Assembly: GCF_007923295.1 (NCBI RefSeq)
Contig: NZ_VOIR01000013.1
Coordinates: 124,001 to 188,000, forward strand
Origin: Agrococcus sediminis
GTDB taxonomy: Bacteria > Actinomycetota > Actinomycetes > Actinomycetales > Microbacteriaceae
DNA length: 64,000 bases
Direction: 5' to 3'
The notes under the pieces were generated by a model. The model did no database searches. It had not been told where the DNA came from and was given only the letters and a program-made list of their open reading frames with translations. The translations under genes were made by a program, and so were the position numbers. This document shows positions 13,398 to 17,631 of this stretch, one piece after another (the first letter of the stretch is position 1; every line of letters begins with the position of its first letter).

Positions 13398-13438
13398 GCC
13401 CGCGTCACCGACACGGCCGCCGAGCACAGGAGACCCGC

Positions 13439-13870
13439 GTGACCCAGCCCATCCAGCCCGACGAGGCCGCGCAGCGACTGCTGCAGGAGCGCGAGGGCAG
13501 GCCGGGCGGCGAGCTCGCGGAGCGCATGGGCATCGAGTTCCTCGAGCTGTCGGCCGAGCGCTCGGTCGCGCGGATGCCGGCCGAGGGCAACCGCCAGCCG
13601 GTCGGCTTCGTGCACGGCGGCGCCTACTGCGTGATCGCCGAGACGCTCGGCTCCGTGAGCGCCAACATCCACGCCGGCCCCGGCCGGTACGCCGTGGGCG
13701 TCGACCTCAACGCGACGCACACCCGCTCGATCACGAGCGGCTGGGTGACGGCGGAGTGCACCGCGCTGCACCTCGGCCGGTCGATGACCGTGCACGAGAT
13801 CGTCTGCCGCGACGACGAGGGCAGGCGCGCCTCGACGATCCGCATCACGAACTTCGTGAAGGACCGCTGA
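13439..13870 (+). CDS. PaaI-like hotdog-fold thioesterase
   Basis: This 143-residue protein matches the PaaI/4HBT hotdog family. It carries the HGG motif (GFVHGGAYCVIAETLGS) and, further on, GVDLNATHTRSI and VTAECTALHLGRS, which build the hotdog helix and sheet. Such enzymes hydrolyse acyl-CoA thioesters; the substrate cannot be inferred. The GTG start is supported by AGGAG at 13428-13432. The gene is divergent from polA. Its stop lies only 10 bp from the first repeat of the left 20-bp array. Confidence 0.88.
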   Translation: MTQPIQPDEAAQRLLQEREGRPGGELAERMGIEFLELSAERSVARMPAEGNRQPVGFVHGGAYCVIAETLGSVSANIHAGPGRYAVGVDLNATHTRSITSGWVTAECTALHLGRSMTVHEIVCRDDEGRRASTIRITNFVKDR

Positions 13871-13880
13871 CCGCGCCCGG

Positions 13881-14095
13881 CCCCTCGAGTGGCGCCTCCC
13901 GCGACTGAGTGGCGCCTCCCGCGCTCGAGTGGCGCCTCCCGCGCTCGAGTGGCGCCTCCCGCGATCGAGTGGCGACTCCCGCGATCGAGAGGCGCCTCCC
14001 GTCATCGAGTGCTCCGGCGATCGAGTGGCGGCTCCCGCGATCGAGTAGCGCCTCCCGCGATCGAGTGCCGGCTCGCCGCGATCAGGCCGCCTCCC
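13881..14095 (+). repeat. Left array of the 20-bp repeat (about 10 copies)
   Basis: The unit GCGATCGAGTGGCGCCTCCC repeats head to tail with a period of exactly 20 bp from 13881, apart from one shortened copy at 14001-14016. Copies differ at a few positions, and the last ones (14057-14095) are the most decayed. The shared 18-bp core is followed here by the dinucleotide CC. The array starts 10 bp after the thioesterase stop. Its last degenerate copy runs into the stop codon of the nuclease gene at 14082-14084. There are no unique spacers, so it is not a CRISPR array. Confidence 0.95.
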
Positions 14096-14963
14096 AGGAG
14101 GAGTACCGCCGGTGCGCAGCGACGATCGTGCGCAGCAGCGCCTCTCCGCCGTCGGCCAGGTCGTCGCGGGTGACCGTGATGATGCACCAGCCCTCCGCGC
14201 GCAGCCTCGCGAGCCGGACGGCATCGCGGGCTCGCTGCTCCGGATCCTCGTGGTGCTCCCCGTCGTACTCGACGCCGAGCCGCAGGTGCGGCCAGCTGAG
14301 GTCGAGGCGCGCCACGAAGCAGCCTGCAGCATCGAGGACCTCGTGCTGGAGCACCGGCTCCGGCAGCGCTCGGAGGATCAGCAGCCGCACCAGCGACTCC
14401 CGCGGCGACTCCGCGCCGACGCGCACGAGCGCGAGCGCGCGTCGTGCGCGGTTCAAGCCGCGCGCGCCGGCATATCTGCGCAGCGCCTCCGTGAGCTCCT
14501 CGAGCGCCATCGCCTCGCGCCGCTTCCGCGACACCAGCCAGTCGCCGACGGCGACGAGCTCTTCGACGGTCAGGAGCGTCGCGAGGTGGACGAAGGCATC
14601 GGCTCGAGCCTCCACGCGCATCCCGTCGACCTCCGTCGTCGCCGACTTCAGCCGATGGCCGACGACGCCGGGCCGGTGCATCCGGGCGCGTCCCGTGGGC
14701 GAGGCGAGGTGCACCCGCGCCTCCTGCTCGAAGCGACCTGGGAGCGGCATCCCGTGGATGCGTGCGGCGGTGGTGTGCGAGAAGAACTGGTCGTCCTGTG
14801 CGAGCGCGCGCACGGCCTCGAGCAGCGCGCGGCCCTCGTCGCCGATCGCCGCGGTGATGCGGACGCCGCGCGCGGGTGCGGTGAAGGCCATCGACCGGAG
14901 CTCCGCCGCGGAGTAGCCGCGCTCGAGGCCGGTACGGACGGTGAAGCCGTGAGGGGTGTCCAT
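14082..14963 (-). CDS. DUF559/Vsr-like PD-(D/E)XK endonuclease with N-terminal AbiEi-like domain
   Basis: This protein of about 293 residues has an N-terminal winged-helix-like region (residues 5-40), as in AbiEi-type antitoxin-domain proteins, and a C-terminal nuclease-like domain. Residues 185-293 carry the DUF559/Vsr-like pattern: E189 in SPRESLVR, D221 in RLDLSW, E232 in VEYDGEHH and the strand GWCIITVTRDD. It probably cuts or nicks DNA, but activity and target are unproven. ATGs at 14972 and 14990 are also possible, and none has a good ribosome-binding site. The frame stays open upstream through the right array, which I regard as chance. The gene stands alone between two inverted 20-bp repeat arrays. 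Confidence 0.8.
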   Translation of the reverse strand: MDTPHGFTVRTGLERGYSAAELRSMAFTAPARGVRITAAIGDEGRALLEAVRALAQDDQFFSHTTAARIHGMPLPGRFEQEARVHLASPTGRARMHRPGVVGHRLKSATTEVDGMRVEARADAFVHLATLLTVEELVAVGDWLVSRKRREAMALEELTEALRRYAGARGLNRARRALALVRVGAESPRESLVRLLILRALPEPVLQHEVLDAAGCFVARLDLSWPHLRLGVEYDGEHHEDPEQRARDAVRLARLRAEGWCIITVTRDDLADGGEALLRTIVAAHRRYSSWEAA

Positions 14964-15040
14964 GGCTCGCATGGTGACGCCGTCGAGCATCCGTTGCGGC
15001 CCCGGACGGTCCGGCTGTGGAGAACGGATGCGGTGGCGTC

Positions 15041-15275
15041 GGGGCGCCGCGCGATCGCAGGCGGCGCCACTCGATCTCGCAAGGCGCCACTCGATCTCGC
15101 AAGGCGCCACTCGATCGCGCAAGGCGCCACTCGATCGCGCGAGGCGCCACTCGATCGCGCGAGGCGCCACTCGATCGCGCGAGGCGCCACTCGATCGCGC
15201 GCGGCGCCACTCGATCACGCGGGGCGCCAATCGGTCGTGCGGGGCGCCACTCGATCGCGCGAGGCGCCACTCACA
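15041..15275 (-). repeat. Right array of the 20-bp repeat (about 11-12 copies), inverted relative to the left array
   Basis: On the plus strand the unit is GAGGCGCCACTCGATCGCGC. Ten full copies run from 15061 to 15260, a partial copy ends at 15275 and a degenerate copy lies at 15041-15058. Its complement shares the 18-bp core GCGATCGAGTGGCGCCTC with the left array but has GC instead of CC as the spacer. The core contains the palindromes GGCGCC and CGATCG. The array fills most of the 352-bp gap between the nuclease start and the ANTAR gene. In the rest I see only the small inverted repeat CCGGAC-G-GTCCGG at 15002-15014. Confidence 0.95.
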
Positions 15276-15315
15276 CGGGGGCGGGCGCCGCGGGGAGGGC
15301 GCCGGCGGCGGGCGG

Positions 15316-15957
15316 CTACTTCTTGGGGGTGCCGAGCTGCTCGATGACGGCCTGGGCGACCTCGGCCATCGTCAGGCGGCGGTCCATCGACGCCTTCTGG
15401 ATCCAGCGGAACGCCTCCGGCTCGGCCAGGCCCATGCGCTGGTTGAGCAGGCCCTTCGCGCGGTCGACGAGCTTGCGGGTCTCGAACCGGTCGGAGAGGT
15501 CGGTCACCTCGGCCTCGAGCGCGCGGATCTGGTCCCAGCGCGCGAGCGCGATCTCGATCGCCGGCAGCAGGTCGTTCTGCGTGAACGGCTTCACGACGTA
15601 GGCGAGCGCCCCGGCCTCGCCTGCGCGCTCGACGAGCTCCTTCTGGCTGAAGGCGGTGAGCAGCACGACGGGCGCGATCTTCGCGGCGCCGATGCGCTCG
15701 GCGGCGGTGATGCCGTCCATCTTCGGCATCTTCACGTCCATGACGACGAGGTCGGGCTCGAGCTCGGTGGCGAGCTCGACGGCGCGCTCGCCGTCGCCGG
15801 CCTCGCCGACGACCTCGAAGCCGGCGGCCTGCAGCGTCTCGACGATGTCGAGGCGGATGAGCGACTCGTCCTCGGCGACGAGCACCCGGCGTGCGGAGGA
15901 TGCGGTCGGTGCGGCAGCCGCGTCGATCTGGGGCTCGGCGAAGAGGTCGTCGGTCAT
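15316..15957 (-). CDS. ANTAR-domain response regulator
   Basis: This 213-residue protein has an N-terminal receiver domain (about residues 25-140) with the acidic pocket in LVAEDESLIR, the phosphoacceptor Asp in VVMDVKMPKMDG and the conserved Lys in VVKPF. It is followed by a coiled stretch and an ANTAR RNA-binding domain (FETRKLVDRAKGLLNQRMGLAEPEAFRWIQ). ANTAR regulators bind paired hairpins in mRNA leaders and prevent termination. No cognate kinase is adjacent and no target hairpin pair was identified. TAGGCT lies 7 nt before the ATG, inside a palindrome shared with the divergent tRNA gene. Confidence 0.95.
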   Translation of the reverse strand: MTDDLFAEPQIDAAAAPTASSARRVLVAEDESLIRLDIVETLQAAGFEVVGEAGDGERAVELATELEPDLVVMDVKMPKMDGITAAERIGAAKIAPVVLLTAFSQKELVERAGEAGALAYVVKPFTQNDLLPAIEIALARWDQIRALEAEVTDLSDRFETRKLVDRAKGLLNQRMGLAEPEAFRWIQKASMDRRLTMAEVAQAVIEQLGTPKK

Positions 15958-15961
15958 GAGC

Positions 15962-15974
15962 ACTAGCCTAGTGT
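15962..15974. promoter_or_regulatory. Palindromic divergent promoter box between the ANTAR gene and tRNA-Leu
   Basis: ACTAGCCTAGT forms the core of the palindrome CACTAG-C-CTAGTG at 15961-15973. It places TAGGCT (15965-15970, minus strand) 7 nt before the ANTAR gene start. On the plus strand it places TAGTGT at 15969-15974, about 30 nt before the tRNA. The two promoters would overlap. Confidence 0.4.
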
Positions 15975-16004
15975 TCGGCCGACCGGGCAGATGCCCCGGC
16001 TCTC

Positions 16005-16086
16005 GCCGGTGTGGCGGAACAGGCAGACGCGGCGCACTCAAACTGCGCTTCCGCGAGGAGTGTGGGTTCGAGTCCCACCACCGGCA
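16005..16086 (+). tRNA. tRNA-Leu (anticodon CAA)
   Basis: The 82-nt sequence folds with the acceptor stem GCCGGTG/CACCGGC, the anticodon stem GCGCA/TGCGC around the loop CTCAAAC (anticodon CAA, reading UUG), a long variable arm typical of class II tRNA-Leu, and the T-arm with GGTTCGAGTCC. CCA is not encoded. It is the only plus-strand gene between 15.3 and 64 kb. Confidence 0.95.
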
Positions 16087-16087
16087 C

Positions 16088-16122
16088 GAAGCCCGGCAGG
16101 TCCACTGGACCGGCCGGGCTTC
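16088..16122. terminator. Terminator between tRNA-Leu and pyk
   Basis: A 10-bp inverted repeat (GAAGCCCGGC and its complement) encloses a second 5-bp inverted repeat (GGTCC/GGACC) with a 3-nt loop. The arms are separated by a single A/G mismatch. It begins just past the tRNA 3' end and lies 15 bp beyond the pyk stop, so it can serve both convergent units. Confidence 0.75.
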
Positions 16123-16137
16123 GCGAGGTGCAGGCGG

Positions 16138-17631
16138 CTATGCCTCCGCGGGGTGCGGCACCGACTGGTGCACGACCTCGATGCGGCGCTTGCCGTGGTA
16201 CGCCGGCACGGCGTCGGCGTGCACGTCGCCGACCCGGTGGATGCGCAGGTCGTTCGTCGAGCCGGAGGTGCCGGGCGGCATGCCCGAGATCACCACGACC
16301 TTGTCGCCGACCTGCGCGAGGCGCTTGCCGATGAGCACGTCGTCGACCTGCGCGATCATCTCGTCGGTGTGCGTCACGCGGTCGACCAGGTGCGTCTGCA
16401 TGCCCCAGATCATCTGCATGCGCGACTCGATCTCGGGGTCGGGCGTGAAGCCGAACATCGGGATCGAGGTGCGCAGGCGCGACATGCGGCGCGCCGAGTC
16501 GCCCGACTCGGTGAAGACGACGATCGCCTTCGCCTCGACGAACTCCGCGACCTCGAGCGCGGCGAGCGTGATCGCGCCGCCCTGCGTGCGCGGCTTCGTG
16601 CCGAGCGGGGGGATGCGGCCGAGGCCGTCCTCCTCGGTCGCCTCGATGATGCGCGCCATCGTCTTGATCGTGACGATCGGGTGCTTGCCCACGCTCGTCT
16701 CGCCCGACAGCATCACCGCATCCGCGCCGTCGAGGATCGCGTTGGCGCAGTCGCTCGCCTCGGCGCGCGTCGGGCGGGGGCTCTCGATCATCGACTCGAG
16801 CACCTGGGTGGCGACGATGACCGGCTTCGCCCAGCGGCGGGCCAGCTCGACCGCGCGCTTCTGCACGAGCGGCACCTGCTCGAGCGGCAGCTCGACGCCG
16901 AGGTCGCCGCGGGCGACCATGATCGCGTCGAACGCGTCGATGATGTCGGCGAGGTTCTCGACCGCCTGCGGCTTCTCGATCTTCGCGACGACGGGCAGCT
17001 TCCTGCCCTCCTCCGCCATGATCTCGTGCACGCGCTCGATGTCCTTCGCGTCGCGCACGAAGGAGAGGGCGATGATGTCGGCGCCCAGCTGCAGCGCCCA
17101 GCGCAGGTCGTCCTCGTCCTTCTCGCTCAGCGCCGGCACGTTGACCGCGACGCCGGGCAGGTTGATGCCCTTGTTCGAGCTCACCGGCCCGCCGACGACG
17201 ACCTCGGTGACGACGTCGTTGTCGGTGACCTCGACCGCGCGCAGCACGATGCGGCCGTCGTCGATCAGCAGCGGGTCGCCCGGCTGCACGTCGGCCGGAA
17301 GGCCCGTGAACGTGGTGCCGGCGCGCTGGCCGTCGCCCTCGACCTCGTCGGTGGTGATCGTGAACCGGTCGCCCTCGGCGAGGTCGTACGGGCCGCCGGG
17401 GATCTTGCCGAGGCGGATCTTCGGCCCCTGCAGGTCGACGAGGATGCCGACCGGGATCCCCAGCTCGTCGCTCGCCCTGCGGATGTCGGCGTACACCCCC
17501 TCGTGGACGGTGTGGTCTCCGTGGCTCAGGTTCATGCGCGCGACGTTGACGCCGGCCGCGATCGCGGCCTTCGTCTGCTCATAGCCGGCCAGTGCCGGGC
17601 CGAACGTCGCGACGATCTTGGCTCTTCTCAT
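16138..17631 (-). CDS. pyk: Pyruvate kinase
   Basis: This 497-residue enzyme catalyses phosphoenolpyruvate + ADP to pyruvate + ATP, the last step of glycolysis. It begins MRRAKIVATFGPAL and shows the active-site lysine region VVAKIEKPQA, the metal-binding MVARGDLGVE, the effector-side helix VIVATQVLESMI and DAVMLSGETSVGKHP. The C-terminal domain runs to the end with the expected layout, and the protein is slightly longer than many family members. An upstream frame extension is open but does not look like kinase sequence. It lies 111 bp downstream of gltD and ends at a hairpin shared with the tRNA gene. Confidence 0.96.
   Translation of the reverse strand: MRRAKIVATFGPALAGYEQTKAAIAAGVNVARMNLSHGDHTVHEGVYADIRRASDELGIPVGILVDLQGPKIRLGKIPGGPYDLAEGDRFTITTDEVEGDGQRAGTTFTGLPADVQPGDPLLIDDGRIVLRAVEVTDNDVVTEVVVGGPVSSNKGINLPGVAVNVPALSEKDEDDLRWALQLGADIIALSFVRDAKDIERVHEIMAEEGRKLPVVAKIEKPQAVENLADIIDAFDAIMVARGDLGVELPLEQVPLVQKRAVELARRWAKPVIVATQVLESMIESPRPTRAEASDCANAILDGADAVMLSGETSVGKHPIVTIKTMARIIEATEEDGLGRIPPLGTKPRTQGGAITLAALEVAEFVEAKAIVVFTESGDSARRMSRLRTSIPMFGFTPDPEIESRMQMIWGMQTHLVDRVTHTDEMIAQVDDVLIGKRLAQVGDKVVVISGMPPGTSGSTNDLRIHRVGDVHADAVPAYHGKRRIEVVHQSVPHPAEA

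Follow-up and report, generated by a model that had tools for sequence, protein, structure and literature searches.

A nuclease gene (NUC1) lying between two inverted arrays of a 20-bp unit in Agrococcus sediminis is probably the enzyme site of a replicator that resembles REP/RAYT systems but depends on an unrelated enzyme, a hydrolytic nuclease. The locus is within a stretch of 64,000 nucleotides that was analysed as a whole and is referred to below as the window. The linkage of gene and repeats, matching arms, scattered copies, changes in presence and absence, an inversion at a sister locus and conserved active-site residues were all observed.

The features of the locus are given in Table 1. 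The two inverted arrays of the original prediction, with about 10 and 11-12 copies of the 20-bp unit, were confirmed, as were the convergent neighbours, a 4HBT thioesterase gene with its stop at 13870 and an ANTAR response regulator gene with its stop at 15316. Beyond these two genes lie polA and pyruvate kinase. The left array has a 20-bp period with one shortened unit near 14000-14015, and the arms of the two arrays are complementary over up to 127 nt at 87%. The core GATCGAGTGGCGCC, with up to 2 mismatches allowed, occurred 21 times in the window and 20 of these occurrences were within the two arrays, while 100 shuffles gave a mean of 4.2 and a maximum of 9, with none reaching 21. The arrays are far beyond chance. 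The arm units also differed between the two sides as predicted, with the consensus GCTCGAGTGGCGCCTCCCGC on the left and GATCGAGTGGCGCCTCGCGC on the right. CRISPR-type unique spacers are absent from the window arrays, where the units run head-to-tail, no cas genes were found among the immediate neighbours of NUC1, and no AbiEii toxin gene was found beside it, its neighbours being the thioesterase and the ANTAR regulator. An Rfam search of positions 13400-16200 at E <=1 matched the neighbouring tRNA alone, and the idea that the array region is a known RNA family was rejected on that result.

Table 1. Features of the NUC1 locus, in window positions
Feature	Positions	Strand	Basis
4HBT thioesterase gene, left neighbour	13439..13870	+	Pfam match
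Left array, ~10 units of 20 bp, GAGTGGCGCC pointing at the nuclease	13885..14076	+	
NUC1 nuclease gene, with a Vsr-type MTES_1575/DUF559 domain at the C-terminal end and a probably AbiEi-like N-terminal part	14082..14963	-	
Right array, 11-12 copies of the 20-bp unit, opposite in orientation to the left array	15043..15272	-	
Response regulator gene with ANTAR domain, right neighbour	15316..15957	-	

The NUC1 protein has a length of 293 residues. Its C-terminal end matched the Pfam families MTES_1575 (E 2e-5, 24.9 bits) and DUF559 (E 6e-4, 20.1 bits), both below the curated cut-offs of 38.2 and 20.6 bits, respectively, and no HUH-Y1 transposase family was among these Pfam matches. MTES_1575 was matched in 26 of 34 aligned family sequences (E <=0.1). 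Residues E189, D221, E232, H238 and D247 were invariant in all 34 aligned sequences including NUC1, down to approximately 32% identity. Four of them (E189, D221, H238 and D247) may correspond to the similar conserved E, D, H and D of the EDxHD homing endonucleases, and we take the EDxHD enzyme I-Bth0305I to be kin of Vsr. The front of NUC1 is probably AbiEi-like, as suggested by weak profile matches in some members of the family. The PADLOC AbiEi models gave matches in at most 4 of 15 members of the family (best match 2.6e-5, the matched part of the protein not being given in the output) and did not match NUC1 itself, and weak mREase_II matches were found in 7 of the 15. With a dN/dS of 0.13-0.27 in ten pairs, NUC1 is under purifying selection. 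The protein had no match in a phage collection of 50,697 records and three matches in a plasmid collection of 72,556 records.

The ANTAR gene was found in all 24 Agrococcus genomes and a NUC1 orthologue was located at the thioesterase-ANTAR junction in 19 of them. It adjoins the ANTAR gene in 18 genomes; in the other one, G014, the assembly is interrupted next to the nuclease and both contigs carry arrays. Contigs end at the right array of G014, so such repeats may fragment assemblies. A transposase-like fragment, IS3-like by eye, is also located beside this array (L136, G014:C5:105000-109453). Repeats matched on both sides of the gene in 19/19 genomes with NUC1, 18 by the flank-repeat census and the split gene of G006 by an arm score of 71, and 20-bp arrays were present at none of the five junctions lacking NUC1. 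Gene and inverted repeats therefore belong together, as originally proposed, and the pairing recurs across the family; a NUC1 gene at this site with unrelated flanks, which would have argued against a single unit, was not seen in any of the 19 genomes.

Tandem Repeats Finder returned 20-bp-period repeats on both sides of the gene and on one contig in 14 of the 19 genomes, and the flanking repeats of G008, G017, G023 and G009 were shorter, decayed or of another period. The unit sequence varies among species (GAGTGGCGCC, GAGYGGTCAC, GASYGGCCAC and others) and the period and orientation of the arrays were constant in the 13 genomes compared. In G006 (L119, G006:C1:214700-218600) NUC1 is split by a stop or a frame change and the arrays are retained. 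The nuclease-free junctions of G010 and G002 (L124, L129) carry a different hairpin by eye, possibly repeats of other nucleases. NUC1 identity correlated with ANTAR identity (Mantel r 0.83, 17 genomes, without G006 and G014), and NUC1 is an old, mostly vertically inherited resident of this junction. The original prediction of a lone insertion in a neutral spot was not sustained, as a gene that is found in most of the genus, tracks the ANTAR gene and is kept by purifying selection acts like a resident, and it is the repeats that spread.

Similarity between arms was 76.3 within a genome and 28.7 across genomes, with 0 of 10000 permutations as good, and the best-matching partner arm was that of the same genome in 11 of 18 cases. 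With species genes held constant, array content was correlated with nuclease identity (partial r 0.52, 2 of 5000 permutations), while the partial r with species genes was -0.33 (12 of the 19 genomes in both cases); the raw correlations in the 12 genomes were 0.43 and -0.02, respectively. Where the nuclease and the species genes disagree, the arrays side with the nuclease. Such displacement was seen in the nuclease gene tree (75 of 78 genes) relative to a three-gene tree; for example, G012 groups with G004, G007 and G019, and G001 joins the group of G020, G016, G022 and G014. A gradient of repeat similarity with nuclease identity was weak, with no clear trend below 65% identity (58 of the 78 genes), and was not upheld.

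The repeat is not confined to the junction. At least ten further array sites were identified in the source genome of the window, away from its four nuclease genes. Eight of ten scattered sites were two-armed with units pointing inward, except for one stray weak match in L048, and at four scattered sites the arms join to form a palindrome that is perfect or almost so. All 18 array sites examined in two genomes were intergenic, nine of them between convergent, eight between codirectional and one between divergent genes; this count was made with our own gene caller and leaves aside a weak in-gene cluster (L046 4190-4344) and four sites in three other genomes. The original prediction had regarded wide occurrence of the repeats without any nuclease as evidence against a functional unit, and taken literally just that was found. 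Scattered copies around one resident enzyme nevertheless have the look of a non-autonomous repeat, and the literal reading was thus not taken as decisive.

Of the 19 genomes with NUC1, 13 had at least 10 more repeat-pattern matches than the control, as did none of the five without it (three patterns, counts including the arrays at the nuclease itself). The other six NUC1 genomes had no clear excess for these three patterns, and small excesses occurred in two genomes without NUC1 (G015, 6 vs 1; G013, 4 vs 0). Genome G002 lies inside the NUC1-bearing clade (branch support 89, unstarred) and has neither NUC1 nor a repeat excess, while G004, next to it on the tree, had 48 matches against 0 in the control. 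At a scattered-array site downstream of a gene that we take to be coaA, the element was found in 6 of 20 genomes and was missing from the other 14. On the tree this distribution requires three or more changes, possibly a single gain and two losses. By eye this site held approximately 2, 5 and 9 units in G016, G014 and G022, respectively, and the unit type switches inside one array in G022.

Scattered units did not always follow the type at the local nuclease. G016, G014 and G022 have GGTCAC-type scattered units but GGCGCC-type nuclease flanks, and the reverse mismatch was seen at one site in G020, so a strict match of scattered unit type to nuclease flanks was not upheld. The two arms of an element in G011 (L148, G011:C6:42600-45800) were of different types, TGGCCA on the left and TGGCGCC or TGGCTCC on the right, and therefore cannot pair well. 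By eye, the scattered hairpins of G021 and the hairpin at the paralogue of that genome have the same asymmetric centre, as would be expected from copying.

One to six family matches per genome were found in the 24 Agrococcus genomes (E <=1e-15, split-gene fragments counted). A repeat shared by both sides was detected at 41 of 59 Agrococcus paralogues (score >=20; null 3/783) with the remaining 18 below the cut-off, and 18 of 19 main-locus genes passed the same census, which covered 78 of 83 genes. These 83 correspond to 85 matches, as two of the genes are each in two fragments. The repeat sequence differs between groups of paralogue genes. A hairpin was found in 56 of 130 flanks and 20 of 129 control windows. 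The hairpin span had a median of 57 bp, which the control windows gave as well, and a fixed span representing a protein footprint was therefore discarded.

The pairing was also found in other actinobacteria. A scan of named genomes, using the best 80 of 407 relatives, gave 79 loci of which 59 had cognate palindromes on both sides and 20 were below the cut-off. The null rates were 6/2158 for swapped pairs, which were drawn from different groups avoiding near-identical loci, and 4/297 for shifted ones. Fourteen of the 79 loci were from Agrococcus, some shared with the paralogue census, and 47 of the 65 outside the genus passed. Passing loci included 6/10 in Curtobacterium, 4/4 in Arthrobacter, Sinomonas and Specibacter, and 27/39 in Mycobacteriaceae with Nocardia, Rhodococcus and Williamsia.

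Scattered doublets of other nucleases, counted on top of the doublets at each nuclease, were also identified; hairpins here, as at the paralogues, the putative coaA site and the empty junctions, were judged by eye for the third nuclease of the source genome and for Arthrobacter and Mycobacterium. Arthrobacter cupressi had four scattered doublets with a 47-bp offset (27 motif matches vs 0 in the control) and a Mycobacterium sp. had two with a 30-bp offset (13 vs 0). In the source genome, the second nuclease had one complete doublet with a 42-bp offset that the pattern detected, plus another hairpin seen by eye, and the third had two scattered doublets with a 46-bp offset. The motif of the third nuclease, with 2 mismatches allowed, gave 12 matches against 24 in the control, so its case rests on doublet geometry. 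The flank score of the fourth nuclease was 16.5, below the cut-off. A family member was encoded at 12 of the 43 loci L304-L346, only at the nuclease's own flanks, and no nuclease was found between two Arthrobacter copies 1.25 kb apart. Hairpin subtypes in Arthrobacter cupressi (L317-L333) included GGATCG, GACTCG, AGCTCG and others, of which only GGATCG fits the nuclease examined; the others may point to a second enzyme or to replacement of one type by another. Recent copying of the gene itself was not seen among the 78 genes compared, as no within-genome nuclease pair exceeded 63% identity over at least 200 residues, and the junction has no nuclease in five genomes.

Inversion of the gene between its repeats, which formed part of the original prediction, was observed at a paralogue locus and not at the main one. 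The nuclease segment between the hairpins at this locus (L041 3103-4275 compared with L188, L189 and L184) is inverted among close relatives, with one orientation in G000 and G021 and the opposite in G009 and G023. The flanking genes, presumably TypA and a flavin monooxygenase, are collinear, and the flanks of G021 share 90-94% identity with those of its two close relatives. The main NUC1 locus has a single orientation throughout Agrococcus.

We infer binding, cutting and copying of the repeat by NUC1 from these observations. The replicator would consist of a resident, mostly vertical Vsr/EDxHD-type endonuclease that has a DNA-binding front, probably AbiEi-like, and recognises its own palindromic site, copies of which would be kept on both sides of the gene and as a scattered, gene-free intergenic population. 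A nuclease dimer would bind inverted half-sites and nick or cut there, and repair would copy repeat DNA from another site to the cut. A hydrolytic nuclease cannot rejoin DNA, so the copying would have to rely on host repair. Such repair copying would keep the two arms alike, expand or shrink tandem arrays and occasionally seed a new copy, and it would also let the gene invert between its repeats. A simple hairpin of approximately 60 bp would, in the NUC1 lineage, have been amplified into the 20-bp tandem arrays.

A dimer on an inverted doublet fits the EDxHD and AbiEi precedents: I-Bth0305I is reported to form a dimer on a target almost 60 bp long (PMC3943268), and AbiEi to bind an inverted repeat of 11 bp whose halves are separated by 27 bp (PMC3985639). 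The EDxHD enzymes described in PMC3943268 are from mobile introns, are mostly phage-encoded and copy their own gene, whereas in the present system copying appears to be limited to the binding site. AbiEi, a type IV antitoxin, likewise binds spaced inverted repeats (PMC3985639), but here there is no AbiEii neighbour, the front is joined to a nuclease and the repeats are on both sides of the gene and scattered. A DUF559 domain is shared with VsrA of Caulobacter, which a methylase mutant is reported to need for mounting its SOS response, so that such proteins can damage DNA in the cell, and which is proposed there to be a mismatch-repair enzyme (PMC12907096). The closest likeness is to REPIN/RAYT systems (REPtron, TnpA-REP), in which a resident, mostly vertical enzyme gene is described as lying between inverted palindromes, with inverted doublets that have no gene dispersed through extragenic DNA (PMC2817692, PMC3116915, PMC6006769); in the present case intergenic position was checked for arrays only. 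RAYT genes are stated to be always flanked by two inverted REPs, often very close or immediately downstream (PMC2817692). The enzymes here are also distinct single copies and vertical, with some displacement relative to species genes. REPIN/RAYT systems, known from proteobacteria and others, use an HUH-Y1 transposase, in contrast to the Vsr/PD-(D/E)XK-type nuclease of the actinobacterial system and the amplification of the NUC1 repeats to 20-bp tandem arrays. As its enzyme is unrelated to RAYT, the present system is not a member of REP/RAYT. The CGTC-tagged REPs are similarly palindromes scattered between genes, but apparently without a dedicated transposase in the account of PMC3733652.

The main rival to the replicator reading is a regulator with operators, where the front end would repress its own gene and a scattered regulon through the palindromes, the nuclease domain would act elsewhere and the repeats would be immobile. 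AbiEi is reported to repress its own promoter through an inverted repeat of similar layout (PMC3985639), AbiEi models match up to 4/15 family members, and one palindrome or array is located upstream of the start codon. This reading is nonetheless unlikely given the second cognate copy behind the stop codon, the location of array sites mostly at gene 3' ends (n=18, two genomes) and the change in repeat presence between species. It is distinctly unlikely that the repeats are transposon ends moved by another enzyme, either a Y1/RAYT or an IS transposase elsewhere, with the nuclease a passenger between two copies. The scattered copies do resemble non-autonomous elements, but a repeat sequence particular to each nuclease, arrays that follow the nuclease and recurrence of the pairing outside the genus are not predicted by one foreign transposase.

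Two further readings were considered very improbable. Host-kept bidirectional terminators or 3' mRNA hairpins, with an incidental nuclease, would agree with arms able to pair and with the nine of 18 array sites (two genomes) between convergent genes, yet would leave unexplained the different repeats of different nucleases, the matching copies on both sides of 41/59 paralogues, the gene-free junctions without arrays and the G011 element with its unmatched arms. Least probable of all is a role in defence or addiction, by which a restriction-like or toxin-like nuclease would have the arrays as decoys or protective sites. The neighbours of NUC1 (thioesterase and ANTAR regulator, then polA and pyruvate kinase) and the near absence of matches in the phage and plasmid collections are against it, despite the weak PADLOC matches to mREase_II and AbiEi and the naming of the MTES_1575 REase domain in a survey of conflict systems (PMC3710099).

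The replicator run by a hydrolytic nuclease is therefore the preferred explanation of the locus. Among the matches listed in the open-licence literature, none tied DUF559/MTES_1575 nucleases to flanking or scattered palindromes, although prior work may exist. Actinobacteria may well contain a large, unnamed class of replicators with many Vsr/EDxHD-type nucleases, each with its own palindrome, representing a second origin of a REPIN/RAYT-like system through cutting and repair. Each nuclease would then be predicted to bind and cut the palindrome beside its own gene, which can be read from the genome. If true, this would provide a function for a common family of unexplained nuclease genes and point to an enzyme for palindromic repeats of actinobacterial genomes, and the REP way of life would have arisen at least twice with unrelated enzymes.
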